From Cyanobium sp. PCC 7001 (lineage in GTDB: Bacteria; Cyanobacteriota; Cyanobacteriia; PCC-6307; Cyanobiaceae), in contig NZ_DS990556.1 of NCBI RefSeq assembly GCF_000155635.1, forward strand, positions 2,062,052-2,126,051: DNA of 64,000 bases, in the 5' to 3' direction. This document shows, one piece after another, positions 6,789 to 45,437 of the stretch (position 1 is the stretch's first letter; every line of letters starts with the position of its first letter). The notes beneath the pieces are model-generated. The model searched no databases, was not told the DNA's origin, and saw only the letters and a program-made list of their open reading frames with translations. The translations under genes and the position numbers were made by a program.

Positions 6789-7247
6789 TTAGCCGGGGTG
6801 GCGCACCAGCAGGTGCTGGCTCTCCACCCGCCGGAAGCCGAGCTGTTCGTAGAAGCCGGCGCTGTTGGTGGTCATCAGGTACACCCGCTCCACCCGTCGC
6901 AGCCTGGGATCGCTGAGCAGGCCCTCCACCACCTGCCGGCCCAGGCCCCGGCCCTGCAGATCACCGGCCACCACCACGTCCCAGAGCACGGCCCGGCACA
7001 CCCCATCACTGCTGGCCCGCCCGAAGCCCACCAGCCGCTTGCCGCGCCACAGGCTCACCACCACCGGGCTGCCGGCCAGCAGCCGCCTCAGCTGGGGGTA
7101 GCTGCGCTCCCTGGCCCAGAAGGCGTGGTGGTTGAACAGCCGCTGCAGCTTCAGCAGGCCGCGGGTGGGGCGCAGCCCCGGGCCCAGGCCGAGCCAGCGC
7201 AGACCGGGCGCACCCGGGGCGTGGCGGAGCAGCTGGATCGGCACCAT
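6789..7247 (-). CDS. GNAT-family N-acetyltransferase
   Basis: This 152-residue protein has the acetyl-CoA-binding motif of the GNAT fold, [15 protein letters not shown], around residues 96-110. It is followed by [18 protein letters not shown], the usual motif B with the FYxxLGF ending. The substrate cannot be read from sequence; related cyanobacterial and plastid proteins acetylate protein termini or small metabolites. The ATG at 7247 is preferred because the longer upstream frame would overlap the divergent rfbA gene and has no family similarity. The start codon overlaps an ATG on the other strand within CCATGG. Confidence 0.82.
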
Positions 7248-7290
7248 GGCAACACGTCCATGGGAACATCCTCCCAGTGACCCGGACGCC

Positions 7291-8181
7291 TTGACCCCCC
7301 AGCGCAAGGGCATCATCCTGGCCGGCGGCAGCGGCACCCGGCTTCACCCGATCACCGTGGGAGTGAGCAAGCAGCTCCTGCCGGTGTTCGACAAGCCGAT
7401 GATCTACTACCCGCTCAGCACGCTGATGCTGGCGGGCATCCGCGAGGTGCTGATCATCACCACCCCCACCGACCAGGAGGCGTTCCAGCGGCTGCTGGGG
7501 GATGGCTCCCGCTGGGGCATGACGATCGCGTACGCCGTGCAGCCCAGTCCGGACGGGCTGGCCCAGGCCTTCCTGATCGGCGAGCGGTTTCTGGCCGGGG
7601 CCCCCGCGGCCCTGGTGCTGGGGGACAACCTCTTCCACGGCCACGACCTGATCCCCCAGCTGCAGGGCTGCAACGGCCAGGCGGCAGGCGCCACGGTGTT
7701 CGCCTACCCCGTGCGGGACCCGGAGCGCTACGGCGTGGTGGCCTTCGATGGCGACGGGCGGGTGCTGAGCATTGAGGAGAAACCGGCCCAGCCCAGGAGC
7801 CGCTACGCCGTCACCGGTCTGTATTTCTATGACGACTCCGTGGTGGAGCGGGCCCGGCGGGTGGTGCCGTCGGCCCGGGGTGAGCTGGAGATCACCGACC
7901 TCAACCGCCAGTACCTGGAGGAGGGGCTGCTGAAGGTGGAGTTGATGGGGCGCGGCATGGCCTGGCTGGATACGGGCACCTGCGATTCCCTGCACGAGGC
8001 CGGCAGCTACATCCGCACCCTGGAGCACCGCCAGGGCCTCAAGGTGGGCTGCCCCGAGGAGGTGGCCTGGCGGATGGGCTGGATCGATGCCGACCAGCTG
8101 GCGGCCCTGGCCGCCCCCTTGCGCAAGAGCGGCTACGGGGAGTATCTGCTGCAGGTGCTGGAGACGGGCCATGCAGGTTGA
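7291..8181 (+). CDS. rfbA: Glucose-1-phosphate thymidylyltransferase
   Basis: Joins dTTP and glucose-1-phosphate to dTDP-glucose, the first step to dTDP-L-rhamnose. The nucleotidyltransferase signature [14 protein letters not shown] is at the N-terminus, with [15 protein letters not shown] and [10 protein letters not shown] following. From the TTG at 7291 the protein has 296 residues, the usual family length. The ATG at 7246 would add 15 residues with no family match. The 3' end overlaps rfbC by 11 bp, so the two are probably translated together. It is the first gene of the run rfbA-rfbC-rfbD. Confidence 0.94.
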
Positions 8182-8746
8182 ACCGCTGATCAGCGCCGGT
8201 GGCGCGGTGCTGGAGGGCGTGCTTCTGCTCACTCCCCGGGTGTTCGGCGACGACCGCGGCTTCTTCTTCGAGAGCTGGAACCAGAACGCCTTCAACGCCG
8301 CCGCTGGCCCCACCGCCTTCGTGCAGGACAACCACTCCCGCTCGGTGCAGGGGGTGCTGCGCGGTCTGCACTACCAGCTGCCCCCCCACCCCCAGGGCAA
8401 GCTGGTGCGTTGCCTGGTGGGGGAGATCTTCGATGTGGCGGTGGACATCCGCCCCAGCTCCCCCACCTTCGGTCAGTGGGGCGGCGTGCGCCTGAGTGCC
8501 GCCAACAAGCAGCAGCTGTGGGTGCCGGCCGGCTACGCCCACGGCTTCCTCACCCTGAGCCCGGAGGCGGAGGTGCTCTACAAGACCACCGACTTCTGGA
8601 GCAAGGAGTGCGAGCGGGGGATCCGCTGGGATGACCCGCAGATCGGGATCGCCTGGCCCCAGGAGGGTCTGCCGGATGGCCAGCCCCTGCTCAGCGCCAA
8701 GGACGCCGTGGCGCCGGCCCTGGCGGAGGCGGACCTGTTCGCATGA
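8171..8746 (+). CDS. rfbC: dTDP-4-dehydrorhamnose 3,5-epimerase
   Basis: Epimerises carbons 3 and 5 of dTDP-4-keto-6-deoxyglucose. The 191-residue cupin protein has the catalytic His in [10 protein letters not shown] and the DNHSRS and [10 protein letters not shown] segments typical of RfbC. The Tyr/Trp segment [12 protein letters not shown] is also present. The ATG at 8171 lies inside the end of rfbA, and its stop overlaps the rfbD start by 4 bp (ATGA at 8743-8746), which indicates one operon. Confidence 0.95.
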
Positions 8747-9639
8747 GCGGCCCACCTCTCACGGTGCTGCTCACCGGCGCCGGCGGCCAGCTGGGTCAGG
8801 AACTGGTGGCCCAGTGCCCCGCGGGGGTGACGCTGATCGCCACGGGCCGTTCCGAGCTGGATCTGGCCGATGCGCAGGCCTGCCGGCAGCTGGTGCTGGA
8901 GCGCCGGCCCGATTGGGTGCTCAACGCCGGCGCCTACACCGCGGTGGACCGAGCCGAGAGTGAACCGGAGCTGGCCGAGGCCGTGAACGCCGGGGCCCCG
9001 CAGGCCTTGGCCGCTGCCCTGGCCGGCACCGGCGGCCGCCTGCTGCACCTGAGCACCGATTTCGTGTTCGACGGTCGCCAGGGCAGCCCCTACGCCACGG
9101 ACCAGCTCCGCAGCCCCCTGGGGGTGTACGGCGCCAGTAAGGCGGCCGGCGAGGAGGCGCTGCTGGCCAGCTCGCTGCTGGCGGATGGCCGCGTCCACGT
9201 GCTGCGCACCAGCTGGGTGTATGGCCCGGTGGGCCGCAACTTCTGCCTCACGATGCTGCGCCTCCACGGCGAGAAGGAGGAAATCGGCGTGGTGGCCGAC
9301 CAGGTGGGCTGCCCCACGGCCACCCCCACCCTGGCGGCGGCCTGCTGGCGCCTGATCGAACGCGCCGAGGTGGGTCTGCCGGACATCCTGCACTGGAGCG
9401 ATGCCGGCGCTGCCAGCTGGTACGACTTCGCCGTGGCCATCGGTGAGCTGGGCGTGGAGCTGGGCCTGCTGCAGCGCCAGGCGCGGGTGAAGCCCATCAC
9501 CACTGCCGACTACCCCACCCCGGCCCGCCGGCCCAGCTACTCCCTGCTCGACTGCACCGCCAGCCGCACGGCGCTGGGCCTGGAGCCCCTGCACTGGCGG
9601 GAGGCGTTGCGGCAGGTGCTGGGGCGGCTTGTGCCCTGA
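8743..9639 (+). CDS. rfbD: dTDP-4-dehydrorhamnose reductase
   Basis: Reduces dTDP-4-keto-L-rhamnose to dTDP-L-rhamnose with NAD(P)H. It is an extended short-chain dehydrogenase of 298 residues. The nucleotide motif GAGGQLGQEL lies near residue 12, and the catalytic YGASKAAGE gives the YxxxK pair. STDFVFDG and TSWVYG are typical of RfbD. It is translationally coupled to rfbC through an ATGA overlap. Its stop lies 15 bp from the end of the broken epimerase on the other strand. Confidence 0.95.
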   Translation: MSGPPLTVLLTGAGGQLGQELVAQCPAGVTLIATGRSELDLADAQACRQLVLERRPDWVLNAGAYTAVDRAESEPELAEAVNAGAPQALAAALAGTGGRLLHLSTDFVFDGRQGSPYATDQLRSPLGVYGASKAAGEEALLASSLLADGRVHVLRTSWVYGPVGRNFCLTMLRLHGEKEEIGVVADQVGCPTATPTLAAACWRLIERAEVGLPDILHWSDAGAASWYDFAVAIGELGVELGLLQRQARVKPITTADYPTPARRPSYSLLDCTASRTALGLEPLHWREALRQVLGRLVP

Positions 9640-11538: not shown

Positions 11539-12642
11539 GTGATCGATCTGCCCGCCCTGCTTGGCTCCCGCAGGCGGGTGCTCGTCACCGGCGGCGCCGG
11601 CTTCATCGGTGGGGCGGTGGTGCGGCGGCTGCTGGCCGAGAGCGCGGCCACGGTGTTCAACCTCGACAAGTGCGGCTACGCCAGCGATCTCACCAGCATC
11701 GAAGCGGTGCTGGCGGGCATGGGGGCCGCAGCGGAGGGCCGCCACCAGCTGCTGCGGGTGGACCTCACCGATCCGGAGGCCACGGCGGCGGCGGTGCGCC
11801 AGGCCGATCCGGATCTGGTGATGCACCTGGCGGCCGAGAGCCATGTGGACCGCTCGATCGAGGGGCCGGGGGCCTTCATCGCCAGCAACGTGAGCGGCAC
11901 CTTCCACCTGCTGCAGGCGGTGCGGGCCCACCACGAGGGCCTGAACGAGGGGCGCCGCGCCGCCTTCCGCTTCCACCACATCAGCACCGACGAGGTGTTC
12001 GGCTCCCTGGGCGAGACGGGCCGCTTCTCGGAAACCACCCCCTACGACCCCCGCTCCCCCTACTCGGCCAGCAAGGCGGCCAGCGACCACCTGGTGAGCG
12101 CCTGGCACCACACCTACGGCCTGCCGGTGGTGCTCACCAACTGCTCCAACAACTACGGCCCCTGGCAGTTCCCCGAGAAGCTGATCCCGGTGGTGATCCT
12201 CAAGGCCGCCGCCGGCGAGCCGATCCCCCTCTACGGCGACGGCGCCAACGTGCGCGACTGGCTCTACGTGGAAGACCACGTGGACGCCCTGCTGCTGGCG
12301 GCCACCCAGGGCCAGCTGGGCCGCAGCTACTGCGTGGGGGGCCACGGCGAGCGCACCAACAAGCAGGTGGTGGAGGCGATCTGCTCCCTGCTGGATCAGT
12401 TGCGCCCGGCCGGTGCACCCCACGCTGGTCTGATCACCCGCGTCACCGACCGCCCCGGCCACGACCGTCGCTACGCCATCGATCCGGCGCGGATCAGCGG
12501 CGAACTCGGCTGGCAGCCGCGCCATGCCTTCGCGCAGGGGCTGGAGGCCACGGTGCGCTGGTACCTGGAGCACCAGGGTTGGTGCACGGGGGTGCGGGAG
12601 CGGGGGGGCTACAGCGGTAGGCGGCTGGGGTTGGTGGGGTGA
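11539..12642 (+). CDS. rfbB: dTDP-glucose 4,6-dehydratase
   Basis: Converts dTDP-glucose to dTDP-4-keto-6-deoxyglucose. The 367-residue SDR protein starts with GTG at 11539. It shows VTGGAGFIGGAVV (NAD binding), HLAAESHVDRSI, the catalytic triad segment STDEVFGSLGETG and YSASKAASDHL (YxxxK). It completes the four-gene dTDP-rhamnose set, though separated from rfbACD by two minus-strand genes. The unusual C-terminal tail after the family end (from about residue 340) is Gly-rich. It converges with the first gene of the AT-rich glycan island, 9 bp apart. Confidence 0.95.
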   Translation: MIDLPALLGSRRRVLVTGGAGFIGGAVVRRLLAESAATVFNLDKCGYASDLTSIEAVLAGMGAAAEGRHQLLRVDLTDPEATAAAVRQADPDLVMHLAAESHVDRSIEGPGAFIASNVSGTFHLLQAVRAHHEGLNEGRRAAFRFHHISTDEVFGSLGETGRFSETTPYDPRSPYSASKAASDHLVSAWHHTYGLPVVLTNCSNNYGPWQFPEKLIPVVILKAAAGEPIPLYGDGANVRDWLYVEDHVDALLLAATQGQLGRSYCVGGHGERTNKQVVEAICSLLDQLRPAGAPHAGLITRVTDRPGHDRRYAIDPARISGELGWQPRHAFAQGLEATVRWYLEHQGWCTGVRERGGYSGRRLGLVG

Positions 12643-14431: not shown

Positions 14432-14446
14432 GCCTTGCGAGAACCC

Positions 14447-19469: not shown

Positions 19470-20330
19470 TTACAGGCAGGAATGGTGAAGAAAGCATTTC
19501 CGAATGGCAACTATGTTCTGAAATTTAAATATCTCGTTTGCTGGATCGTATCTGTGGCCGAGTGAAATGAGTTTTTTGGTGTCTAGCCTAAAGAAGCTCC
19601 ATTCGTCTCCAAGTATGTCATAAAAGTCTTTCAGAAAAACTCGGCTTATAACATTCATTTCATTAAACTCAAATTGTAGGGCCCTAACCCCGCCCCCTCT
19701 AATCACCCCAAGCATTCCCTTTAGTGACTCAAGCTCATGTCCTTCAGTGTCTATCTTGATAAAGTGAATCTCTGCTTCTGCGATAATGCGTGATTCCACT
19801 AACTCATCAATTCTTTCCATGGAGCAGGCTAAGGAGCCGATGTTGCCATCATCTTGAAGGTGAAATTCTTTGAAAACATCCCTGTAGAGTGAGGCGTGGC
19901 CAGTGGACGAGTCTGACTTATAGACAAAAATCCTTCTACGCTGACCCTTGCTGCTTGCGCCGCAATTAAACAGCCTAATATTTGATATGGATCCCGTGTT
20001 GGCAGCGAGTTCCTTGAAGGTTATTGGGTTCGGTTCAAATGCATAGCAACGGCATGACGGGAGTGATTTGGCAAGTGCAATGCTGTATTCTCCAACATTT
20101 GCGCCTATGTCAAGTAGTACTGGCTCATCGATATCTGAAAGGAGGCGAGGCAAAAATTGTTCAACAAGCCATTTCTCGCCACTCGCGTAGCCGACGTGCT
20201 TTAAAATGCCACTGCTCTCATAGTAGAGCTTCCTCGCATCTAGTCTAAACACTCTAATAAGCGCCTTCGTGACGGCTTCTGCGGCACGGTGAATTCGACG
20301 TTTGATGGACCTCCTCGCTGTATCTAGCAT
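19470..20330 (-). CDS. FkbM-family methyltransferase
   Basis: A 286-residue protein with the FkbM arrangement: [19 protein letters not shown] (SAM binding, about residues 70-88), [14 protein letters not shown] and [18 protein letters not shown]. FkbM enzymes O-methylate hydroxyls on sugars and polyketides; here the target is probably the glycan made by the neighbouring genes. The ATG at 20330 lies just upstream of the wzt stop (overlap 20324-20330), so the gene follows wzt in the same transcript. It is among the most AT-rich genes of the window. Confidence 0.87.
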
Positions 20331-21673: not shown

Positions 21674-21674
21674 C

Positions 21675-22532
21675 TCAGATCACATCCGCCAATCGCTTCT
21701 CCATCCGCCGGAACTGCCGCAGCCCCGTGAGCAGCAGCACCAGCACGATCGCCATCGACAGCCAGAAGCCCAGAGGGTTGATGAAGGCGCCCTGGCCGAT
21801 GATCGCCCAGCGGAATCCCTCGATCACCCCCACCACCGGGTTGAGGGCGTAGAGCAGCTGCCAGCTCTCCGGAACGATGGCGCTTGAAAAGCCCACCGGG
21901 CTGATGTAAAGTCCGAACTGCACCAGAAACGGCACCACGTAGCGGAAGTCGCGGTACTGCACGTTCAGGCTGGCCAGCCACAGCCCCGGGCCCAGGCTCG
22001 CCGCCGTGGCCACGCCCATCCACAGCGGCAAGGTGAGCAGCCGCCAGCTGGGCCACCATTGGAACCACACCATCAGCCCTGCCAGGATCAGCAGAGCGAT
22101 CACGGCATCCACAAAACTGGTGATCACCGCGGCTGCCGGCACGATCAGCCGCGGGAAGTACACCTTCGTGAGTAGGTTGGCGTTGTCGATCAGGCTGTCG
22201 GCGCAGCTGCTGAGCGCCGTGCTGAAGAACTGCCACGGCATCGTGCCGGCGAACACCAGCACCGCATAGGGCGCATCCCCCTCCGAGGGCAACCTGGCGA
22301 GCCGGCCGAAGATCACGGTGAACACCAGCATCGTGAGCAGCGGCCGGACCAGCGCCCAGCCCACGCCGATGGCCGTCTGCTTGTAGCGCACCGCGATGTC
22401 GCGCCAGGCCAGGATCCAGAACAGCTCCCGGTAACGCCACAGATCCAGCCAGTACTGCTTCTCGATCCGGTTCGGCTCCAGCACCAGGCGGTACTCGCCG
22501 GCGGATGTCTGTGACGCAGCGCGACGGGGCAC
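21675..22532 (-). CDS. wzm: Polysaccharide ABC exporter, permease subunit
   Basis: A 285-residue ABC-2 type membrane protein with about six predicted helices. The N-terminal cytoplasmic segment [23 protein letters not shown] is split here only by its length; its last part, [20 protein letters not shown], is the family signature. It pairs with Wzt. GC is at core level, unlike the glycan genes downstream. The start is GTG at 22532. It is first in the wzm-wzt-fkbM run and lies just downstream of a toxin-antitoxin remnant. Confidence 0.91.
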
Positions 22533-22536
22533 CGGT

Positions 22537-22764
22537 TCAGGCCCTCTGCAGCGAGCCAGGGCAGCCAGGCCAGCGGCCCGTGGCCAACCCGGCCAGAAGC
22601 CCCTCCACCTGCGCCTGGGCGATCAGCAGGCGGCGCACCTGCACCACAACCTCGCTGAATGCCTCGTTCGGCGCCGTGCCGTGGCTGGCGATGATCACCG
22701 CCTCACCGGCCGGAGCGGAATTCGCCAGCCTGGAGAGCTGGCTGTTGGCCTCCAGCATGTTCAC
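22537..22764 (-). pseudogene. Remnant of a Phd/VapC toxin-antitoxin operon
   Basis: The 75-codon frame begins NMLEANSQLSRLANSA and continues GEAVIIASHGTA, the start of a Phd/YefM-type antitoxin. It then jumps to RRLLIAQAQVEGLLAG, which resembles the conserved C-terminal segment of PIN-domain toxins (RLLIAQAQ). The antitoxin C-terminus and most of the toxin are missing, as if an internal deletion fused the two genes. The stop lies 4 bp before the wzm start. This is the only content I see in the 312 bp between wzm and the intact toxin gene. Confidence 0.55.
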
Positions 22765-22844
22765 CTGGATGGCGGTATCGCCGGATCTGGTCAGCGTAGA
22801 CAGTTTGCCGTACCCGACCTTCCGTAGCGGAGATGGAGCGCGAT

Positions 22845-23249
22845 TCAGGGCAACACCCGCTCCGCCAGCTCATGCATCCGTCGATCGGCGGTGAGCAAGG
22901 CGGCTGCTTCGCGCCGGGCCAGCGCCAGATACAGGCAGTCGTACACGGGGTGCTCCAGATGGCAGGCCAGGGCCAGGGCTTCCACCTGCAGATGCCGATC
23001 GGGCTCGATGTGATCCACCAGCTCCGCGGCCCTGCTCAGCCTCTGCTGCACTCCCGTGGCCTCCAGCTGGCCAGAGCGCTGCAGCCGCCACAGCGCATTG
23101 GCCACCTCGGTGAGCATCAGTTCCGGTGCCAGCACCAGATCGGCCCGGAGCACCGCGTCGCGAAGGGCAGCGGCCTGGCTGGAACCCTCGATGATCCGCA
23201 CCACGGCGGAGGCATCCAGCACCAGGCTGGACGATCCCAGGGCCGTCAT
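22845..23249 (-). CDS. PIN-domain ribonuclease toxin (VapC-like)
   Basis: A 134-residue PIN-domain protein. The acidic residues of the nuclease site are visible in LVLDASAVVRI (near residue 11), LMLTEVANAL, HPVYDCLYLAL and LLTADRRM. VapC toxins cut RNA, often initiator tRNA or rRNA, when not bound by their antitoxin. The ATG at 23249 is 1 bp downstream of the antitoxin stop, the normal order for such pairs. Core-like GC indicates long residence or a high-GC donor. Confidence 0.88.
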   Translation of the reverse strand: MTALGSSSLVLDASAVVRIIEGSSQAAALRDAVLRADLVLAPELMLTEVANALWRLQRSGQLEATGVQQRLSRAAELVDHIEPDRHLQVEALALACHLEHPVYDCLYLALARREAAALLTADRRMHELAERVLP

Positions 23250-23250
23250 G

Positions 23251-23502
23251 TCAACGGGAACGGTCCTGGCGGATCAGGTCCTCTGGAGGTGGATCAAAAG
23301 GCTGCCCGGCCTGCTCCACGGCCAGCGCTTCCAGGTCGGCGAGGGCCTGCCGGCGTCGCTCGCGGGGGTCCCCGCCGCAGGCCTGCTGCAGATCGCTGAG
23401 GGCCTGCTGGCTCAGGCTGCGGTGATGGCGGCGGGCGCGGAGCTGCAGCAGCTGATGCAGGGGATCGGGAAGGTCGCGGATCTGCAGGGTGGCCACCAAC
23501 AC
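23251..23502 (-). CDS. FitA/VapB-like antitoxin
   Basis: A small protein of about 83 residues with a ribbon-helix-helix N-terminus: ATLQIRDLPDPLHQLLQLRA, followed by SLSQQALSDLQ. The C-terminal half is charged, as expected of a toxin-wrapping tail. It should repress its own promoter and neutralise the PIN toxin encoded 1 bp downstream. The start is uncertain: GTG at 23502 or 23496 places the first beta strand right at the N-terminus. The longer frame from a TTG at 23520 adds residues without family similarity. Confidence 0.82.
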   Translation of the reverse strand: MLVATLQIRDLPDPLHQLLQLRARRHHRSLSQQALSDLQQACGGDPRERRRQALADLEALAVEQAGQPFDPPPEDLIRQDRSR

Positions 23503-23630
23503 GCATCGCAGTGAATGCAATCTACATGCACTCTTCAGCTCAGGGCGGGCTCCGGCTGTTGGGGACAGCCTGGGTCTGAGGCCCCAGCGTCGCTACCGTC
23601 CGCCCAGCCGCCTCGCCACCGCCCACCCCG

Positions 23631-24524
23631 ATGCCGGCCACGATCTACCTGCACTGGGCTGCCACGCCCTACGACTGGGTGCGGCCGGGGCACTACCACT
23701 CGATCATTGCCGGTGACGGCACGCTGCACCGCCTGCACGCCTACACGATCGATCTGCCGGCCCACACCTGGCGCCGCAACAGCAATGCCGTGGCCCTCTC
23801 CTGCGCCTGCATGGGCGGCCGCCCGGATCCCTGGACGATCCCGCCCACCGAGGCCCAGCTCGATCGGATGTGCCGCGAGGCGGCCGAGATCGCCCGCGGC
23901 TGGGGCTGGGGCGCTGAGGAGATCACGATCGAGCGGGTGATGACCCACGCCGAGGCCGCCTCCAACCGCGACGGCCGCTGGATGCATGACAACTACGGCC
24001 CCGTGATCTGGGGCGGCAGCGGCGAGCGCTGGGACTTTCTGCAGCTCAGTAAGGGCGGCCCGCCCACCGGTGGCGACGAGCTGCGCCAGCGCATCCGCGC
24101 CGCTCTGGCCGGCAGTCCGCCCCCCGAAGCCGCCAAGCCCTCTCCCCTCGCCTTCCGCCGCGCCGCCACCATGACGGCCCGCGGCCAGGAGCTGGCGGTG
24201 GAGATCGACGAGCACGGCACCTCCTGGGCCCTCGCTGCCGATCTGCTGCGCCGCTACGAGATCCCCTTCGCCTGGGAGGCCAGCCGTCGCCGCATCCTGA
24301 TCGGCAGCCTCGATGTGGCGCCCACCTACCGCCACGACCAGGTGCAGCCCGCGGTGGGCTGGCCCCTGTTCGAGATGACCCTGCTCAGCGGCCCCGCTCC
24401 GGTGATCCTGCGCGGCCTGCTGCGGGAGAGCCGGGCCTGGTGCCGCGTGCTCGAATTCGCCGAGGAGTTCGGCATCAGCGTGAGTTTCGAGCCGTTCACC
24501 CTGCTCGAGCGGCGGGGCGGTTAG
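23631..24524 (+). CDS. N-acetylmuramoyl-L-alanine amidase-domain protein
   Basis: Residues 1 to about 165 resemble the amidase-2/peptidoglycan-recognition fold. YLHWAATPYDW carries the first zinc-type His, HYHSIIAGDG the phage/bacterial amidase core, VMTHAEAA the second His and GERWDFLQL the third ligand (Asp). Such enzymes cut between muramic acid and L-Ala in peptidoglycan. The C-terminal ~120 residues (from RAATMTARGQELAVEI) match nothing I recognise. No signal peptide is visible, unusual for a wall enzyme and more like an endolysin or an intracellular recycler. It stands alone between the toxin pair and the wecA-like gene. Confidence 0.72.
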   Translation: MPATIYLHWAATPYDWVRPGHYHSIIAGDGTLHRLHAYTIDLPAHTWRRNSNAVALSCACMGGRPDPWTIPPTEAQLDRMCREAAEIARGWGWGAEEITIERVMTHAEAASNRDGRWMHDNYGPVIWGGSGERWDFLQLSKGGPPTGGDELRQRIRAALAGSPPPEAAKPSPLAFRRAATMTARGQELAVEIDEHGTSWALAADLLRRYEIPFAWEASRRRILIGSLDVAPTYRHDQVQPAVGWPLFEMTLLSGPAPVILRGLLRESRAWCRVLEFAEEFGISVSFEPFTLLERRGG

Positions 24525-24537
24525 GAGCCCGGCCGCG

Positions 24538-25497
24538 ATGCCCCCACCCCCCATGGCCCCAGCTGGCGTCCTCGCCCTGGCAGCCGCGCTGCTCTCCTGG
24601 ACCCTGCTGGGCCTGCTCCTGCCCGGGCTGCGCCGCGCCCTGCCCGACCATCCCAACGCCCGCAGCTCCCACCGGCGCGTCACCCCCCGCGGCGGCGGCG
24701 TGGTCTTCGCCCTGGTGGGCAGCGCTGGTGCCCTGCTGCTGGGCCTCCGCCTGCCAGCCCTCTGCCTGCCGCTGGCCCTGGTGGGCCTGCTCGACGACCG
24801 CCGCTCCCTTCCGCCCGGGCCGCGGCTGGCGGCCCAGCTGGCCACGGCGCTCCTCCTGGTGGGGCTGAGTCCGCTGGGGCAGTCGCCGTGGCTGGCGCTG
24901 CTGCTCGCCCTGGCCGCCACCGCCCTGATCAACCTCGTGAACTTCATGGACGGCCTCGACGGCCTGGTGGCGGGTTGCCTGGTGGTGTGGCTGGCCGCCG
25001 CCGCCTGGGGCGGCCAGCCGGCTCTCTGGCCCCTGGTGGGAGCCCTGCTCGGCTTCCTGCCCTGGAACTGGAGCCCGGCCCGGGTGTTCATGGGCGATGC
25101 GGGCAGCACCTTCCTCGGTGCGGTGCTCGCCAGTGCGGTGCTGGCGGCGCCGGGCTGGCGGGAGTCGTTGCCGCTGCTGCTGGTGGCCCTGCCCCTGCTG
25201 GGCGATGCCGGCGTGTGCCTGCTCCGGCGCCTGCGGGCCGGCCACCGCCTCTGGCAGGCCCACCGGCTGCACCTCTACCAGCGGCTGCAGCAGGCGGGCT
25301 GGAGCCACCGGCGGGTGGCCGGGCTCTACAGCGCCGCCACCGCCGCCCTGGCCCTGGCCTGGCGCCTGGGGGGCTGGCCCTGGCTGCTGGCCCTCGCCGC
25401 CGCCGTGCTGCTGCTGGGGGCGTGGCTGGAGCGCTGCGTGGCGGTGCCCTTTGACCCACCGCCTAGCGTGAGCGCCACCCTCTCGCCGCCAGGGTGA
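24538..25497 (+). CDS. WecA/MraY-family sugar-phosphate transferase
   Basis: A 319-residue polytopic membrane protein that should transfer a sugar-1-phosphate from a UDP-sugar to undecaprenyl phosphate, starting polysaccharide synthesis. It has the family motifs LVGLLDDRRSL (DDxxxD type), LINLVNFMDGLDGL and RVFMGDAGSTFLG. The late motif HRLHLYQRLQQAGWSHR contains the nucleotide-sugar-binding histidines. About nine to ten hydrophobic helices are visible. The stop overlaps the start of the next gene by 4 bp (GTGA), so initiation and sugar modification are co-expressed. Confidence 0.9.
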   Translation: MPPPPMAPAGVLALAAALLSWTLLGLLLPGLRRALPDHPNARSSHRRVTPRGGGVVFALVGSAGALLLGLRLPALCLPLALVGLLDDRRSLPPGPRLAAQLATALLLVGLSPLGQSPWLALLLALAATALINLVNFMDGLDGLVAGCLVVWLAAAAWGGQPALWPLVGALLGFLPWNWSPARVFMGDAGSTFLGAVLASAVLAAPGWRESLPLLLVALPLLGDAGVCLLRRLRAGHRLWQAHRLHLYQRLQQAGWSHRRVAGLYSAATAALALAWRLGGWPWLLALAAAVLLLGAWLERCVAVPFDPPPSVSATLSPPG

Positions 25498-27401
25498 CGC
25501 TTCCACCGCGCTGGCCCCGGCTTGGCCGCATCCCGCTGCTGCTGCGTCGCCTGCCCCTGCTGCTGGCCGATGTGGTGCTGCTGCCCCTGGCCGTGTGGCT
25601 CAGCTTCCTGCTGCGCCTGGCCGATCCCTGGCCGACGGAGCTGGAGCAGTCGCTCTGGCTGCTGCCCACCGTGCTGGTGATCGGCCTGCCCCTCTATGCC
25701 CTCAGCGGCCAGTACCGGGGGCTCACCCGCTACGTGGGCAGTGCTGCCCTCTACCAGCTGGCCATCCGCAACGCCCTGCTGGTGCTGCTGGTGGCCTTCG
25801 CCGGCCTACAGCTGCAGCTTCCGGCGCCGCCCCGCAGCAGCTGGCTGCTGCTCTGGATCCTGCTCACGGTGTTCACCGGCGGCCTGCGTTTCGCCCTGCG
25901 CGACCTGCTGCTCGGCCAGGCGCCCCCGGGGCCGCGGCCCCGGCGTCAGCGGGTGGTGATCGTGGGGGCGGATGCGGCCGCCGCCCAGCTGGCCGCCGCG
26001 TTGCGGCTCGGCCACGACACCCGCATCGCCGCCTTCCTCGACGACGACCCCGGCCTCTGGCACCGCACCCTCTACGGGGTGCCGGTGCTGCCTCCCGAGC
26101 GCCTACCGCGGCTGCTGCGCAGCAGCCGCGTGGATCAGCTCATCCTCTCCACCCCCTCGCTGCCCCAGGCTGAGCGTCGGCGCCTGCTGGCCAGCCTGCA
26201 GGGCTTCGGCGTGCCGGTGCTGCAGGTGCCCGCGGTGGAGGAGATCGCCTCGGGCCGCGCCACGATCGACACCCTGCGACCGGTGCCGATCGAGGACCTG
26301 CTCGGCCGCGAGAGCGTGCCGCCCGACCCCGCCCTGCTGGGGGCGGCGATCACCGGCCGCAGCGTGCTGGTGAGCGGAGCCGGCGGCTCGATCGGCTCCG
26401 AGCTCTGCCGCCAGATCCTGCGGCTGCGGCCGTCGCGGCTGGTGCTGCTCGAGCGCAGCGAGCTGGCCCTCTACGCGATCGGCCAGGAGCTGGCCGCCTG
26501 GGGCTCAGCCGTGCCGGTGGTGGAGGTGCTCGGCGACGTGGCCGAGCAGGCCTTCCTGGAGGGTGTGCTGCGCAGCCAGGCCGTGCAGGTGCTGTTCCAT
26601 GCGGCCGCCTACAAGCACGTGCCGCTGGTGGAGGCCAACATCTGCGCCGGCCTGGCCAACAACCTCTTCGGCACCCGCAGCGCCCTCCAGGCCTCCCTGG
26701 CCTGCGGCCTGGAGCGCTTCACCCTCATCTCCACCGACAAGGCCGTGCGCCCCGCCAACGCCATGGGTGCCAGCAAGCGCCTGTGCGAGCTCCTGGTGCA
26801 GAACGCCGCCGCCGCTCAGGGGCGTCACCCCGAGCGCACGATCTGCTCGATGGTGCGCTTCGGCAACGTGCTCGGCTCCTCCGGCTCGGTGGTGCCCCTG
26901 TTCCGCCGCCAGATCGCCGCCGGCGGCCCCGTCACGGTGACCCACCCGGAGATCACCCGCTTCTTCATGACCATCCCCGAGGCGGTGCAGCTGGTGCTCC
27001 AGGCCAGCGCCATGGCCACCGGCGGTGAGGTGTTCCTGCTCGACATGGGGGAGCCGGTGCGGATCACCGACCTGGCCCGCCAGATGATCCAGCTCTCCGG
27101 CGCCAGCGTGCGCGATGCCGACCATCCCGACGGTGAGATCGAGATCCACTACACCGGTCTGCGGCCAGGCGAGAAGCTGCACGAGGAGCTGCTGCTGGGT
27201 TCCGCCAGCGACCCCACGGCCCACCCCCTGATCCGGCGGGCCCGCGAGGCCTCGCTGCAGCCCGAGCGTCTCGAGCCGCCGCTGGCTGCCCTGGAGGCCG
27301 CCCTGCGCCGCTGGGATGAGGCCGGCGCCCTCGCCGCCCTGCAGCGCCTGGTGCCCGACTACCACCCCGCGTCCACCGGGCTGGCCGGCCAGCCTCGGTA
27401 G
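25494..27401 (+). CDS. CapD/FlaA1-type nucleotide-sugar 4,6-dehydratase
   Basis: A 635-residue membrane-bound dehydratase. Four N-terminal helices (to about residue 125) are followed by a first nucleotide fold ([17 protein letters not shown]). The catalytic SDR domain follows: [17 protein letters not shown], then [16 protein letters not shown], where Met replaces the usual Tyr of YxxxK as in PglF/CapD enzymes. It likely makes a UDP-4-keto-6-deoxy-HexNAc for surface glycans. The start is GTG at 25494, coupled to the wecA-like gene. The C-terminus ([16 protein letters not shown]) is typical of the family. Confidence 0.92.
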
Positions 27402-39440: not shown

Positions 39441-40484
39441 ATGACGCTCGCTCTCGCCCCCTCCCCTTCCGCCGTCGCCGCCGCGACGCGGCCGGTCTCC
39501 GCTCCGGCCCGCTCCGTGCCTGCCTTGGACGGCGATCTGGTGCGCAGCTACCTGCGGGACATCGGCCGGGTGCCGCTGCTGACCCACGAGCAGGAGATCA
39601 CGCTGGGCCGCCAGGTGCAGGAGCTGATGGCGCTGGAGGAGATGGAGCAGGAGCTGACGATGCGGGCTGGGGGAACGGCACCGAGCGCGGCGGAGCTGGC
39701 GAAGGCGGCGGGCCTGAGCCCGGCGGTGCTGAAGAAGCGTCTGCAGGCGGGCCGCCGGGCCAAGGAGCGGATGGTGGCGGCGAATCTGCGGCTGGTGGTG
39801 AGCGTGGCGAAGAAGTACACCAAGCGGAACATGGAGCTGCTGGATCTGATCCAGGAGGGAACGATCGGCCTGGTGCGGGGCGTGGAGAAGTTCGACCCGA
39901 CGCGGGGCTACAAGTTCAGTACGTATGCGTACTGGTGGATCCGCCAGGGGATCACGCGGGCGATTGCGGAGAAGAGCCGCACGATCCGTCTGCCGATCCA
40001 CATCACCGAGACGCTGAACAAGCTGAAGAAGGGCCAGCGCGAACTGAGCCAGGAGCTGGGCCGCACGCCGACGGTGACGGAGCTGGCGGGGTATGTGGAG
40101 CTGCCGGAGGAGGAGGTGAAGGACCTGCTGTGCCGCGCGCGTCAGCCGGTGAGTCTGGAGACGAAGGTGGGGGATGGGGAGGACACGGAGCTGCTGGATC
40201 TGCTGGCGGGGGATGGGGAGTTGCCGGAGGAGCGTGTGGACGGGGAGTGCCTGAAGGGAGACCTGCGGGCGCTGCTGGAGCAGCTGCCGGAGCTGCAGGG
40301 GCGGGTGCTGAAGATGCGCTACGGCATCGATCCCCAGTCGGCCGAGATGGCCGAGCCCATGAGCCTCACCGGCATCGGCCGCATCCTGGGCATCAGCCGC
40401 GACCGGGTGCGCAACCTCGAGCGCGACGGTCTGGCGGGCCTGCGCCGGCTCAGCAGTGCAGTCGAGGCCTACGTGGCCAGCTGA
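39441..40484 (+). CDS. Group 2 RNA polymerase sigma factor (RpoD-like)
   Basis: A 347-residue sigma-70 family protein. Region 1.2 is [20 protein letters not shown]. Region 2 runs from [20 protein letters not shown] to [14 protein letters not shown]. Region 3 has [16 protein letters not shown]. Region 4 has the less usual [20 protein letters not shown], where the principal factor has RERIRQIE. Short region 1.1 and this region 4 mark a non-essential group 2 factor. The central part (about 39580-40310) uses mostly G-ended codons (Ala GCG, Thr ACG), while both ends use C-ended ones like the neighbours. Confidence 0.92.
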
Positions 40485-40510
40485 TGGGGCCAGCTGATAG
40501 GGCCAGCTGA
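40475..40510 (+). repeat. Three copies of a stop-containing decamer
   Basis: GGCCAGCTGA occurs at 40475, 40488 and 40501, a 13-bp period. The first copy contains the natural stop of the sigma-factor gene. Because 13 is not a multiple of three, the three TGA triplets fall in the three different frames. This is seen directly; its purpose is unknown. Confidence 0.75.
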
Positions 40511-40592
40511 GGTGGCCTGCCGGGCAGCGCGCTTTCCAGGGTTAGTTTCGGTCGCTGAGCGCCCCGGGGCGCTCCTGTCCTGAGCCCTGCCC

Positions 40593-41945
40593 ATGCCCTC
40601 CGAGTCGCTGTTGTCCTGGCTGGAAGGCCGCCGCGGGCTCTGCGACATGACCGTCCGGGAGATTCCCTGGCAGCAGTCCGGCGAGTGGCGCTACCGGGAT
40701 GGGGCGCTGCAGCACAACTCCGGTGGCTTCTTCAGCATCGTGGGCGTGGAGGCCACCGCCGGCGGCCGCACCACCCTGCGCCAGCCCCTGATCAACCAGC
40801 CCGAGGTGGGCATCCTCGGCTTCCTGCTGCAGCGGCGCGGCGGCGAACCCCATCTGCTGATCCAGGCCAAGCCCGAGCCCGGCAACATCGGTCTCGCCCA
40901 GGCCGCCCCCTCGGTGCAGGCCACCCGCAGCAACTACAAGCGGCTGCACCACGGCAAGCCCACCCCCTTCCTCCAGTACTTCACCGGCGATCCGGCAGCC
41001 ACGCTGCGGGCTGACAGCCTGCAGTCGGAGCAGGGCACCCGTTTCCTGGGCAAGTACAACCGCAACATGACGGTGGAGCTGCCCGGCGACCTGGAGCTGG
41101 ACCTCGACGACGTGTACCGCTGGGCGCCGGTGCGGGAGGTGTGCGCCCTGCTGGTGAGTGATTTCCAGATCAACACCGATGCCCGCTCCGTGCTCGCCTC
41201 CTCCGACTGGTCGGCCCTGGCCGGTGGCGAGGGTCCCTTCGGCCGCTGCCGGGGGGAGGGCGGATTCGGCGAGGCCCTGCTGCGCTCCTATGCCTCCGGC
41301 CCGGAGCAGGAGCACAGCAGCGATGCCCTGATCCTCCAGCGCCTCGAGGCGCTGCGGGCCGCCCATCCATTCGCTGTGGCCACCGTTCCGCTCGACGACC
41401 AGGTGGACTGGCTGGAGGGCCGCCAGCTCCGCCTGCTCGGGCCCGCCGGCAGCTTCGACGTGCGCCAGGTGGCGGTGAGCTCCAGCGAGCGCGAGGTGCG
41501 CAGCTGGGACCAGCCGATCGTGGCCCAGGAGCGGGAGGGCACGGCCGTGCTGCTGGCGCGGGAGTTCGATGGCGTGCTACACCTGCTGTTCCGCTGCCGC
41601 GCCGAGATCGGCTTCAAGGAGGGCTTCCAGTACGGACCGGCGCTGCAGGATGCCGGCGGCGCCCCCTCGCCGGTGCCGGAGCTCGATGCCGAGGAGGAGC
41701 TGCTGGAGGCGCTGCACCGGCGCTCCACCCCCGTGCTCTCCAATCTCCACTCCGACGAGGGCGGCCGTTTCTACCGCTCGGTGGCCCGCTACACCATCGC
41801 CCTGCTCGATTCCGCCGAGGCGCCGCCCCAGTCCCCCTCGCTCAGCTGGATGACCCTGGCCCAGATCGAGCGGCTGGTGAAGCGCCAGGGGGTGTTCTCC
41901 AACGAAGCCCGCAGCCTGATCTCCATGCTGCTGGCCTACCTCTGA
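40593..41945 (+). CDS. NDP-hexose 2,3-dehydratase family protein
   Basis: A 450-residue protein of the EvaA/TylCVI family, which removes water across C2-C3 of dTDP-4-keto-6-deoxyglucose on the way to 2-deoxy sugars. The family's internal duplication is visible. QPLINQPEVGILGFLLQRR with HLLIQAKPEPG in the first half is mirrored by QPIVAQEREGTAVLLARE with HLLFRCRAEIG in the second. GTRFLGKYNRN and TPVLSNLHSDEGGRFYRS are further family motifs. No partner 3-ketoreductase or aminotransferase lies nearby, but RfbA and RfbB, encoded 28-33 kb upstream, could supply the substrate. The next gene is a glycosyltransferase, 4 bp on. Confidence 0.88.
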   Translation: MPSESLLSWLEGRRGLCDMTVREIPWQQSGEWRYRDGALQHNSGGFFSIVGVEATAGGRTTLRQPLINQPEVGILGFLLQRRGGEPHLLIQAKPEPGNIGLAQAAPSVQATRSNYKRLHHGKPTPFLQYFTGDPAATLRADSLQSEQGTRFLGKYNRNMTVELPGDLELDLDDVYRWAPVREVCALLVSDFQINTDARSVLASSDWSALAGGEGPFGRCRGEGGFGEALLRSYASGPEQEHSSDALILQRLEALRAAHPFAVATVPLDDQVDWLEGRQLRLLGPAGSFDVRQVAVSSSEREVRSWDQPIVAQEREGTAVLLAREFDGVLHLLFRCRAEIGFKEGFQYGPALQDAGGAPSPVPELDAEEELLEALHRRSTPVLSNLHSDEGGRFYRSVARYTIALLDSAEAPPQSPSLSWMTLAQIERLVKRQGVFSNEARSLISMLLAYL

Positions 41946-41949
41946 GCCC

Positions 41950-43014
41950 ATGGCCGCCCCCACGCCCGCAGCCACCCCCGCCCCCGCGCCCCGCGTCAGC
42001 CTCGTGATTGCCACCTACCGGCGGGTGGATGCCCTGCGCAGCACCCTGCGGGCCCTGCAGCTGCAGACCTGTCCCGACTGGGAAGCGGTGGTGGTGGGCG
42101 ACTGCTGCGACCCCGACACCGGCGCCATGCTCGAGCAGCTGGGCGATCCGCGCCTGTGTTACTACAACCTCACCGAGCGCTTCGGGGAGCAGTCGGGCCC
42201 CAATTCCTTCGGCCTGGCCCTGGTGCGCGCGCCGGTGGTGTGTTTCCTCAACCACGACGACCTGCTGCTGCCCGACCACCTGGAGCAGGGCCTGCGGCGC
42301 CTGGAGCAGGCCCGGGCCGATGTGCTCCTGGCTCCGGCCCTGAAGCTGGTGAACTGCCACGAGGATCCGGAAGGCCGCATCCGGCCCGTGTTCATGAAGC
42401 GGATCACGCTGGGGCCGGCCCTGCGCGATCTGCGCATGCTGCTGCGGCGTGAGGATCTCTTCTACGACCCCAGCAGCTTCTGGCTGGTGCGCACCGCCTT
42501 CGCCCGCCGGGTGGGCACTTGGACCCACTCCAGCCGGCTGTGGCGCACCCCCCTGCGGGACTGGCTGTTGCGCGCCTGGCGCCGCGGTGGCCGCTTCGCC
42601 TTCACGCCCGAGCTGGCCGGCATCCGGGTGGTGACCCACAACCACCGCGGCAGCCGCCGCCGCTACAACGCCGTGACCCCCGAACACCAGCGCCTCGTCC
42701 GTCTGTTCGAATCCCTCCCCCCTGAGCAGGTCCGGGAGCGCGTGCCCCGCCGGATGCGGGAGAAGGCGGCGCTGCTGGGCCGGCCGCTGCGGCGCCGGGA
42801 CCGGCCGGCCGAGGTCACGCTCGGCCTGCGCCTCCAGGCCCTGCTGTTCCGGGTGTTCGGGCTCGATTGGCAGGTGCTGCGCTGGCGCTCCCAGGGGGTG
42901 AAACCCGGCGCCTTCCACTCCCGTCTGCTGCGGCTGCGCACCGGCGAAACCCTCGCGGCCGTGCCGGATCTCTCCACCCTGCTGGCGGATCCGGAGCGCT
43001 ACCGGGTGGTCTGA
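41950..43014 (+). CDS. Glycosyltransferase family 2
   Basis: A 354-residue protein. After an Ala/Pro-rich start it shows RVSLVIATYRRVDALRSTL, WEAVVVGDCCDPDTG and FLNHDDLLLPDHL, the GT-A donor-site motifs (metal-binding DD near residue 98). The C-terminal ~120 residues are basic and rich in Arg, with no recognised domain. It begins 4 bp after the 2,3-dehydratase stop, so the two probably act on the same unusual sugar. High GC and normal codon use indicate a long-resident pair. Confidence 0.88.
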   Translation: MAAPTPAATPAPAPRVSLVIATYRRVDALRSTLRALQLQTCPDWEAVVVGDCCDPDTGAMLEQLGDPRLCYYNLTERFGEQSGPNSFGLALVRAPVVCFLNHDDLLLPDHLEQGLRRLEQARADVLLAPALKLVNCHEDPEGRIRPVFMKRITLGPALRDLRMLLRREDLFYDPSSFWLVRTAFARRVGTWTHSSRLWRTPLRDWLLRAWRRGGRFAFTPELAGIRVVTHNHRGSRRRYNAVTPEHQRLVRLFESLPPEQVRERVPRRMREKAALLGRPLRRRDRPAEVTLGLRLQALLFRVFGLDWQVLRWRSQGVKPGAFHSRLLRLRTGETLAAVPDLSTLLADPERYRVV

Positions 43015-43066
43015 CCCGGGAACACCCAGCTCCGGGCGGGTCGGCCCCGAGGCACCGGCGCCGGGA

Positions 43067-44161
43067 TCAGTCGGCGAGCTCCTGGCTGGCGTCGGGCGTG
43101 GGTGCCATCAGCGCCTGCATCGGCTTGGCCACGAAGGAGGTGTGCCCTGCCAGGGCCGTGAGGTCAAGACGCACGTAGTCCATGCCGCCACCATCGCGCA
43201 GGAAGAGCAGTCGCCGTTCCAGGTCAGACAGGCTCGTCCAGGATGTGAACTCCGTGGGTGCCTGGGGAACGGCCACGCCCTCCACCTGCAGGTGCTCCAC
43301 TCCCTCCTGGGGCGGATCCACGGTGATGCCCCGCGGTCGGTCGAAGTTGTTCATCAGATGGGCGACCATGCGCACGGCCTGATCCGCATCCGACTGCTTT
43401 TCGGCGAACTGGGCATAGAACGCCGCGCGGATGAAGCGATCCGGCGAGGTGTCCGTCACCGGCAGGCCGGCTTTGGCGACGCCTGAGCCCGGCTGCACCG
43501 CTTGAAAGGAACCGAAGAGCGCCCTGGACCGGTCGATGTTGTCGAGAAAGGTGTAGTTGTTGAGATTGGTGAGGTGCCACGAGAACTGCGGTGCGTTGGT
43601 GAGCACGCCCACCGGGTTGTCGAGGACCGTGCGCTGGCCCTTGTGAAACTCCACAACCAGGCTGTCGCCGCCTGCGTCGTGGATGCCGTAGTGGAAGGGC
43701 ATCTCCAGACCGCCGAGGATCGGAATCCGCGGCAGCAGCACGGGCTGGGATTCCAGTGCGGCCCTCACCTCGGCCACCGTGGCGAACTGGCCCAGGGCCC
43801 ACACCCCCAGGTCTGCCGCCGAGAGCACGGCCTTGTCCTGATCCACCGCCGCCTGGGGACCGCCGGCCGCTGCGTAGGCCTGCACACTCACAGACAGCCC
43901 GGCGCTGTTCAGTCCTTCGATCACCTTGAGCTCGCCCGGCCCGGGTTTCCGCTCCGGCGCCGGTGCCTCCGCTGGCATGGTCACCGCCAGCACGGCAAAG
44001 CGGTTGGTCCAGCGCAGCGCTGGATGGCCGGGAAACGCTGACTCCAGCTCCAGCCCCTCCGGAAAGCGTGCCACCAGGTAGGGGAGATCAATCGTGAGTT
44101 CGAGCGTGCGGCCCACATAGGCCCGACCGGCACGGTCGCGATAGAGGAGTGATGTGCACAT
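43067..44161 (-). CDS. Choloylglycine hydrolase/penicillin acylase family protein
   Basis: A 364-residue Ntn hydrolase. The ATG at 44161 is followed at once by Cys (MCTSLLYRD), so removing Met exposes the catalytic N-terminal Cys2. Arg18 in VGRTLEL and the Asn-containing LTNAPQFSWHLTNL also match the family. The usual Asp21 is Glu here. Members cleave linear amides: bile salts, penicillin V or acyl-homoserine lactones. A bile-salt role is implausible in a cyanobacterium, so signal or lipid amide cleavage is more likely. No signal peptide precedes Cys2. It diverges from mutY. Confidence 0.87.
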   Translation of the reverse strand: MCTSLLYRDRAGRAYVGRTLELTIDLPYLVARFPEGLELESAFPGHPALRWTNRFAVLAVTMPAEAPAPERKPGPGELKVIEGLNSAGLSVSVQAYAAAGGPQAAVDQDKAVLSAADLGVWALGQFATVAEVRAALESQPVLLPRIPILGGLEMPFHYGIHDAGGDSLVVEFHKGQRTVLDNPVGVLTNAPQFSWHLTNLNNYTFLDNIDRSRALFGSFQAVQPGSGVAKAGLPVTDTSPDRFIRAAFYAQFAEKQSDADQAVRMVAHLMNNFDRPRGITVDPPQEGVEHLQVEGVAVPQAPTEFTSWTSLSDLERRLLFLRDGGGMDYVRLDLTALAGHTSFVAKPMQALMAPTPDASQELAD

Positions 44162-44267
44162 GGATCGCTGCCTGCCGGTCTGGCCAGCATCCGGACCCGG
44201 TTGTTGTCCGGGCCGCCGGGTTGATGCCATCCCCTGGCAGGGTTGCCGGAATCCTTGGCTGCTGACA

Positions 44268-45437
44268 GTGGGAGATGCGAGCTGGGACGCGTTCGCCGCG
44301 CTGGCGCCGCAGCTGCGCCGGCGGCTCCTGGCCTGGTGGGCGGGCTCAGGCCGCCACACCCTTCCCTGGAAGCTGCGGGGGGATGGTGGCCGGCCCCGTG
44401 GCGGGGAGGGCCTCGACCCCTATCCGATCTGGGTGGCCGAGGTGATGCTGCAGCAGACCCAGCTGCGGGTGGCCCTGCCCTACTGGCAGCGCTGGATGAC
44501 CCACGTGCCCGGCCTGGAGGTGTTGGCGGCGGCAGAGGAGCGCGATCTGCTGCTCCTCTGGCAGGGTCTGGGCTACTACTCCCGCGCCCGGCGTCTCCAG
44601 CAGGGGGCGCAGCAACTGCTGGGCCAGACCTGGCCCCGCGATCTGGCCGACTGGCTGGCGCTGCCGGGGATCGGCCCCAGCACCGCCGGCAGCATCCTCT
44701 CCTCGGCGTTTGATCTGCCCTTCGCGATCCTGGACGGCAATGTCAAGCGGGTGCTGGCCCGCCTCACCGCCAGCCCGCGGCCGCCGGCGCGTCAGCTCGC
44801 GGGGCTCTGGCAGCTGAGCGAGGCCCTGCTCGATCGGCGGCGGCCCCGGGACTTCAACCAGGCGCTGATGGATCTGGGCGCCACCGTGTGCACCCCCCGT
44901 CAGCCCCGCTGCGGTGCCTGTCCCTGGCAGGGGCACTGCGCTGCCTACGCTGCCGGCGACCCCGCCCGCTTCCCCGTGAAGGACGCTCCCCGCCCGCTGC
45001 CCTTCCAGGTGATCGGCGTGGGGGTGGTGCTCAACGACGCCGGCGAGGTGCTGATCGATCAGCGCCTGCCGGAGGGGCTGCTGGGGGGGCTGTGGGAATT
45101 CCCGGGCGGCAAGCAGGAGGCCGATGAGCCGATCGAGGCCACCATCGCCCGGGAGCTGCGGGAGGAGCTGGCGATCGAGGCCGAGGTGGGCCAGGAGCTG
45201 ATCAGCCTGGAGCACGCCTACAGCCACAAACGCCTGCGCTTCGTGGTGCACCTGTGCCGCTGGCTCGGCGGTGAACCCCAGCCCCTGGCCAGTCAGCAGG
45301 TGCGCTGGGTGCAGCCCTGCCAGCTCGCCGACTACCCCTTCCCGGCCGCTAACGCCCGCATCATCACGGCCCTGCTGGAGCATCTGGAGGCCGCCGCGTC
45401 TGCCGGCGGCGCGTCCAGTGCTGACGCTGCCGCCTGA
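44268..45437 (+). CDS. mutY: A/G-specific adenine DNA glycosylase
   Basis: Removes adenine mispaired with 8-oxoguanine. About 389 residues from the GTG at 44268; the frame is open further upstream but there overlaps the divergent hydrolase start. The catalytic Glu is in EVMLQQTQLR, the helix-hairpin-helix is LPGIGPSTAGSIL and the Asp is in LDGNVKRVLARL. The 4Fe-4S ligands follow the C-x6-C-x2-C-x5-C spacing in CTPRQPRCGACPWQGHC. The C-terminal domain keeps a complete Nudix box (GGKQEADEPIEATIARELRE, then EL), which most MutY proteins have lost. PfkB kinase follows 35 bp on. Confidence 0.94.
   Translation: MGDASWDAFAALAPQLRRRLLAWWAGSGRHTLPWKLRGDGGRPRGGEGLDPYPIWVAEVMLQQTQLRVALPYWQRWMTHVPGLEVLAAAEERDLLLLWQGLGYYSRARRLQQGAQQLLGQTWPRDLADWLALPGIGPSTAGSILSSAFDLPFAILDGNVKRVLARLTASPRPPARQLAGLWQLSEALLDRRRPRDFNQALMDLGATVCTPRQPRCGACPWQGHCAAYAAGDPARFPVKDAPRPLPFQVIGVGVVLNDAGEVLIDQRLPEGLLGGLWEFPGGKQEADEPIEATIARELREELAIEAEVGQELISLEHAYSHKRLRFVVHLCRWLGGEPQPLASQQVRWVQPCQLADYPFPAANARIITALLEHLEAAASAGGASSADAAA

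Follow-up and report, generated by a model that had tools for sequence, protein, structure and literature searches.

A stretch of 64,000 nucleotides from Cyanobium sp. PCC 7001 (contig NZ_DS990556.1, positions 2,062,052 to 2,126,051; the whole stretch is called the window below) encodes a homologue of nucleoside diphosphate (NDP)-hexose 2,3-dehydratase followed by a GT2-family glycosyltransferase. The two genes form a recurrent, coupled unit, here called the cassette, in cyanobacteria, Pseudomonas, and Kordiimonas-type alphaproteobacteria. Across these three bacterial groups, and in two gene orders, the transferase is kept in place of a ketoreductase or aminotransferase. The likeliest reading is that both enzymes work one after the other on a single sugar, the transferase taking the dehydratase product either directly or after its reduction by an unrelated enzyme. 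The open reading frames (ORFs) span 40593-41945 (450 residues) and 41950-43014 (354 residues) on the forward strand, the second starting 4 bases downstream of the first. A first-pass annotation of the window had placed a 2,3-dehydratase and a glycosyltransferase at exactly these coordinates, and both identities are borne out by PF03559/EvaA and PF00535/GT2 matches. It had also called the dehydratase an orphan. That label is dropped because the dehydratase belongs to a pair of genes that recurs in distant bacteria.

The dehydratase matches PF03559 (Hexose_dehydrat) in two stretches that cover the whole protein (E = 3.5e-100, 334 bits), and the Cyanobium genome holds two matches to this family, both in one frame. 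In both repeats it aligns to the 4j7g chain of EvaA, an enzyme of the chloroeremomycin pathway of Amycolatopsis orientalis (PDB 4j7g/4j7h). Its AlphaFold model (predicted local distance difference test 87.5) has the EvaA fold of two Nudix-like repeats and matches EvaA over the full length in a Foldseek comparison (template-modelling score 0.81, E = 1e-40). In the available portion of PMC8987622, residues E139 and E190 in pocket A of EvaA are reported to be essential by mutagenesis. If the numbering of the EvaA chain is taken to be that of the paper (both positions are Glu in the chain), these residues align with E95 and E146 of the window enzyme. Both are Glu in 87/87 aligned homologues, although the invariance of E95 owes something to the homologue search itself, since this residue is included in one of its two patterns. 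With these residues in place, a catalytically intact dehydratase is predicted, one that would carry out the 2,3-dehydration of an NDP-4-keto-6-deoxyhexose.

In contrast to these likenesses, the window dehydratase is only 30-31% identical to EvaA, has T195 where EvaA has M, and lies among housekeeping genes with no adjoining ketoreductase or aminotransferase. Position 195 is T in all ten cassette dehydratases and M in the 77 others aligned; column 388 is D in 10/10 cassette members (D388 in the window enzyme) and E in 76/77 others. A tree of 86 dehydratases places nine cassette members on one side of a branch with a Shimodaira-Hasegawa-like approximate likelihood ratio test (SH-aLRT) value of 100 and a stem of 1.52. 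This is a quick, unrooted tree with SH-aLRT values and no bootstrap, it lacks one cassette genome (G1023), and it carries composition warnings and two long branches (G104 and G209).

The transferase matches PF00535 (E = 1.5e-16), a family matched by 9/9 cassette transferases scanned. Its AlphaFold model (predicted local distance difference test 82.2) shows a GT-A fold and matches GT2 structures with a best Z of 20.3. Among the nearest structures, some of SpsA and RmlT contain dTDP or TDP-rhamnose; SpsA, RmlT, TarP, and AvpGT share the GT-A GT2 fold at Z 19-20 but are only 15-23% identical to the window protein, and the cassette transferases have motifs of their own. For example, the 47 residues invariant across the ten cassette transferases include G79-E80-Q81 and G83-P84 (GEQ-GP), N101-H102-D103-D104 (NHDD), and R330-T331-G332 (RTG). 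NHDD is presumably the DXD-type metal/nucleotide motif of the GT2 family. Residue D204 is taken to be the GT2 catalytic base; this assumption comes from the 'ED' motif of the family and the position of the residue in a helix beginning at 201, and not from a residue-level structural alignment. Among the ten cassette transferases, position 204 is D in six, H in two, Q in one, and N in one.

Outside the cyanobacteria, an alignment-based profile scan of genome contigs gave 468 dehydratase relatives, of which the best 80 were analysed; a scan of the same kind of contigs with the single protein found no relative. The closest of the best 80 by far is the dehydratase of Pseudomonas neustonica (58% identity over the full length), and the gene that follows it encodes a GT2 protein 50% identical to that of the window. 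Five more pair loci among the 80 belong to Kordiimonas species and alphaproteobacterial metagenome-assembled genomes. In these the order is swapped and the genes overlap by 4-14 bases, with the transferase first, whereas the dehydratase comes first in cyanobacteria and Pseudomonas. A search of 396 genomes of one alphaproteobacterial order, the one that holds the first of these loci, gave seven matches: the five pair loci, G1023 with the same transferase-dehydratase arrangement (about 23 bases of overlap if GTG is the start), and G1014, a remote relative that lacks the cassette GT2 and has a GT61 gene nearby on the opposite strand. In the family of P. neustonica, 2 of 398 sampled genomes match, P. 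neustonica itself and G692, in which a distant dehydratase-like gene adjoins a GT61 gene. All taxon searches reported here are samples, and those of the P. neustonica family and the alphaproteobacterial order scored at most four candidates per genome. The distance from stop to start is between -14 and +7 bases in 9/10 cassette loci. The window GT2 is also closer to cassette GT2s from a different phylum (134-297 bits for seven of them) than to the other GT2 loci fetched from its own genus (no more than 68 bits).

Within the genus, the whole dehydratase is present in 3/13 genomes, namely the own genome, G011 (91% identity), and G004 (78%); in the genus scan, G001 has a 78-residue match at 36% and nothing more. 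An orthologue of the transferase is found in the same three genomes (91% and 80%) and in none of the other ten, where even the best GT2 matches are local (the two highest at 30-33%). In all three carriers the pair is bounded by the same sigma factor on one side and by MutY on the other, MutY being, in the window, a name read from the sequence of ORF 44154-45437. In G011 and G004 the GT2 gene runs up to or into the start of the mutY match. The interval between sigma factor and mutY (40485-44154 in the window) was fetched from eight other members of the genus, in seven of which the sigma factor was reached. There it is occupied by genes resembling antiporters, by other small genes, or by next to nothing (names taken from the sequences), and it is a variable slot in the genus. 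Both cassette genes are under purifying selection, with Nei-Gojobori (NG86) ratios of nonsynonymous to synonymous substitution (dN/dS) of 0.16-0.32 among three genus members, values that are rough in GC-rich genomes. A chance ORF or a recent pseudogene is rejected on these ratios and on conservation. The conservation across strains that the first-pass annotation had named as support for a linked role is thus observed, both in the three genus genomes and in P. neustonica and the Kordiimonas-type alphaproteobacteria.

At higher ranks, PF03559 was matched in 7/251 sampled genomes of the family (G001 included) and in 3/388 of the class. Three of the family genomes (G042, G104, and G209) carry another dehydratase, 28-30% identical, with a Gfo/Idh reductase and DegT aminotransferase encoded next to it, and these dehydratases fall on the other side of the tree from the cassette members. 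The same dehydratase-Gfo/Idh-DegT order is found in 10/12 viral contigs with a PF03559-type dehydratase; the remaining two are L196, which stops directly past the dehydratase gene, and L200, which is cut short. Such units resemble the cassette in their PF03559 enzyme, and the cellular ones in their bacterial family, but differ by the adjacent reductase and aminotransferase; the cassette GT2 occurs in none of the 12 viral loci. Judged by gene content, phages may carry a complete dideoxy-aminosugar route. Phage records gave no dehydratase match, and plasmid records gave 85, all below 60% identity and 75 of them from Streptomyces. The first-pass annotation had regarded 2,3-dehydratases as best known from actinomycete antibiotic clusters; that they are chiefly an actinomycete trait finds no support here, as 19 of the best 80 of 468 relatives are actinomycete, although this is no fair census.

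As described in the available portions of PMC10054333 and PMC6490886, known routes hand the diketo product of the dehydratase to a 3-ketoreductase or a C3 aminotransferase. The OssS/OssT and AknN/AknQ systems treated there share with the cassette the first enzyme and the presumed substrate class, but encode a reductase with the dehydratase where the window has a GT2. The absence of both a ketoreductase and an aminotransferase beside the pair, already remarked in the first-pass annotation, holds: the flanking genes are the sigma factor and MgtE upstream and a CBAH-like hydrolase downstream, and the immediate neighbours include neither an aminotransferase nor a Gfo/Idh reductase. Among the best 80 of 468 relatives, a Gfo/Idh homologue is encoded at 0/6 cassette loci vs 60/74 others (within 300 bases in 49), and a DegT homologue at 39/80 loci and 0/6 cassette loci. 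The remaining 14 of the 80, some on short contigs, have neither Gfo/Idh nor the cassette GT2.

The usual ketoreductase is also absent, by profile, from most carrier genomes examined. On a 3-ketoreductase profile the best scores of the cyanobacterial carriers were 76 (own genome, G000), 75 (G011), and 73.5 bits (G004); those of the other carriers were 31 (P. neustonica, G578), 88 (G579), 152 (G580), 97 (G581), 59 (G582), and 98 bits (G1023), with no match to this profile in G583. Four genomes with conventional loci scored 404-460 bits, their proteins being rows of the profile, and 247-419 bits with those rows left out, one kept row (L103) being close to the G492 protein. Of 72 further loci scored with the held-out profile, 52 match at 143-487 bits (49 of them above 200), and the six cassette loci among the 72 show no match to it. 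Thus, no convincing 3-ketoreductase orthologue of the Gfo/Idh type was found by profile in 9/10 cassette genomes (below 99 bits). A search for partner reductases elsewhere in the genome had been proposed in the first-pass annotation. For the Gfo/Idh family, the only one covered, it yields two proteins (PF01408; L022 and L023), which score 68.7 and 59.5 bits on the held-out profile vs 247-419 for the controls.

Both own-genome Gfo/Idh proteins were rejected as 3-ketoreductases on their low scores; L022 resembles a UDP-N-acetylglucosamine 3-dehydrogenase below the cut-off, and L023 is further from that enzyme. The genome also has one strong DegT match (PF01041) and five weaker ones. The strong one, L024, is not taken as a partner because it is encoded elsewhere and reaches none of the listed NCBIfam cut-offs (its best score is 261.7, for PseC, with a cut-off of 423.5).

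Some relatives without a nearby reductase adjoin transferases of other families. Divergent or fragmentary dehydratase-like proteins adjoin GT61 transferases at L171:1348-3445, L179:333-2748, and L012:518-1719 (the GT61 match of L012 is below cut-off), and no Gfo/Idh gene was noticed in these short stretches. In a Bacteroidota branch (L132:6469-7917 and L151:1306-2739) the dehydratase adjoins a PMT-type membrane transferase and an apparent polysaccharide deacetylase, with no Gfo/Idh gene at either locus; L091 has a similar neighbour, and L136, of the same branch, has a Gfo/Idh gene. Because these reductase-free relatives adjoin GT61 and PMT-type transferases, there is a hint that dehydratase-transferase pairing arose more than once.

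A supply of dTDP-4-keto-6-deoxyglucose is plausible because rmlA, rmlC, rmlD, and rmlB all lie in the window (Table 1); the first-pass annotation had rightly pointed to RfbA and RfbB. RmlB is over its cut-off in 8/9 cassette genomes tested (G1023 stood outside the test). Based on these observations, the following mechanism can be proposed. The dehydratase would take an NDP-4-keto-6-deoxyhexose, here most probably dTDP-4-keto-6-deoxyglucose made by RmlA and RmlB, and would remove its C2 hydroxyl to give an NDP-3,4-diketo-2,6-dideoxyhexose. The GT2 would capture this labile product directly, with no need for a dedicated 3-ketoreductase, and would put the 2-deoxy sugar on an acceptor that may lie in the cell envelope. 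That the transferase takes the dehydratase product directly in this way is the favoured but tentative view, to which we give somewhat less than an even chance. A bolder and rather unlikely version is that the 3,4-diketo-2,6-dideoxy sugar is transferred unreduced, so that glycoconjugates would end in a reactive diketo sugar, perhaps able to chelate metals or crosslink amines, and that the cassette is one of several independent reductase-free pairings (with GT2, GT61, or PMT/GT39 transferases).

Several points weigh against direct capture. We know of no glycosyltransferase that transfers a diketo sugar. The closest GT2 structures use uridine diphosphate (UDP)-, GDP-, and dTDP-sugars alike; because UDP- and GDP-sugar users are among them, the fold leaves the donor unsettled. 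As the presumed base is D in only 6/10 cassette members, transferase activity is uncertain in some of them on sequence grounds. The absence of a reductase covers the Gfo/Idh family only, the aldo-keto and short-chain dehydrogenase/reductase (SDR) families not having been searched, and the Gfo/Idh protein of G580 (150-152 bits) scores within the range of the controls (143-487), near its lower limit. Finally, P. neustonica has no RmlB over cut-off: its best match (108 bits) is GalE, a second (93 bits) is an unnamed SDR, and it encodes PseB and a WbpM-like dehydratase. Either rmlB is absent from that assembly or the substrate there differs; the lack of a recognisable RmlB argues against one universal dTDP substrate.

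The alternative that survives best is an ordinary 2,6-dideoxysugar pathway, in which an aldo-keto reductase, an SDR, or RmlD from elsewhere reduces the diketo intermediate, RmlC and RmlD may finish the sugar, and what the GT2 attaches is a conventional 2,6-dideoxysugar. The presence of rmlC and rmlD in the window, the 14 of the best 80 loci that lack both Gfo/Idh and cassette GT2, and the borderline protein of G580 fit such borrowing, and early steps of an antibiotic pathway can be drawn from genes outside its cluster, as the available portion of PMC6490886 describes. It is, however, at odds with the lack of a convincing Gfo/Idh ketoreductase in 9/10 cassette genomes and with cassette loci in which Gfo/Idh is found in none of the six examined and the GT2 in every one. 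This account is possible, yet on balance unlikely.

Quite improbable is a repurposed dehydratase that acts on another nucleotide sugar, or on a lipid- or glycan-linked sugar, for which the GT2 would supply or extend the acceptor. The long stem of the cassette branch, T195 and D388 fixed differently from other aligned 2,3-dehydratases, the enzyme set of P. neustonica, and the reductase-free relatives beside GT61 (L171 and L179) and PMT-type (L132 and L151) transferases are consistent with this idea, but both catalytic glutamates and the modelled EvaA fold are retained and RmlB accompanies most cassettes. Maltol-type pyrones are breakdown products of the diketo intermediate, and a GT2 that merely binds the nucleotide sugar or promotes elimination, so that the pair makes a small soluble product of this type, is very improbable. 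In its favour, position 204 is H, Q, or N in four of ten members while NHDD is invariant, and the pair lies outside the polysaccharide cluster and, in Kordiimonas, among apparent acyl-CoA-metabolism genes, but the GT2 fold (Z up to 20) and purifying selection on the protein speak for a working transferase, and H or a neighbouring E could act as base.

Table 1. Coordinates in the window of the cassette genes, selected codons, and associated genes.
Feature	Coordinates	Strand	Basis
NDP-hexose 2,3-dehydratase homologue, two Nudix-like repeats, 450 residues	40593..41945	+	PF03559 334 bits; EvaA by sequence and fold
Codon of E95, aligned with EvaA E139	40875..40877	+	EvaA alignment
Codon of E146, aligned with EvaA E190	41028..41030	+	EvaA alignment
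Codon of T195, diagnostic of cassette branch	41175..41177	+	Alignment: T 10/10, M 77/77 others
GT2-family glycosyltransferase, dehydratase partner, 354 residues	41950..43014	+	PF00535; fold of AlphaFold model
Codons of N101-H102-D103-D104, presumed metal/nucleotide (DXD-type) motif	42250..42261	+	Invariant in 10/10 cassette transferases
Codon of D204, presumed GT2 catalytic base ('ED' motif)	42559..42561	+	Motif and helix position
RpoD/SigA-family sigma factor, conserved left border of variable slot	39441..40484	+	TIGR02997; synteny
rmlA/rfbA, glucose-1-phosphate thymidylyltransferase (ORF with N-terminal extension)	7132..8181	+	TIGR01207 487.6 bits
rmlC, dTDP-4-dehydrorhamnose 3,5-epimerase	8087..8746	+	TIGR01221 249 bits
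rmlD, dTDP-4-dehydrorhamnose reductase	8743..9639	+	TIGR01214 306 bits
rmlB/rfbB, dTDP-glucose 4,6-dehydratase, likely substrate source	11539..12642	+	TIGR01181 419.7 bits

The surroundings of the cassette differ between its hosts. A CBAH-like gene (choloylglycine hydrolase family, PF02275) lies antisense at 43067-44359 between the GT2 gene and mutY in the window, and it was not found between these genes in G011 and G004. The Kordiimonas pair sits among genes that read, by names taken from sequence, as acyl-CoA metabolism; Pfam identifies one of two neighbours compared with it as a zinc alcohol dehydrogenase and gives no match for the other. The polysaccharide cluster of the window (11539-27401, about 13-29 kb upstream of the pair) contains rmlB, rhamnosyltransferase-like and other transferases, methyltransferases, Wzt/Wzm-like export proteins, and a WbpM-like dehydratase. 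The first-pass annotation had suggested a role in a cell-surface glycan or lipid. A role in a surface glycan is unproven: the pair sits between the sigma factor and mutY, away from the polysaccharide genes clustered at about 7-27 kb.

Antibiotic biosynthesis is the main setting in which 2,3-dehydratases are known, and no dehydratase-GT2 pair is reported in the titles or abstract openings of the open-licence literature searched. A recurrent coupled pair without a ketoreductase would mean either a new way of handling a diketo sugar or an unrecognised reductase. The pair is a minimal two-gene system and, as such, directly testable in a laboratory host.

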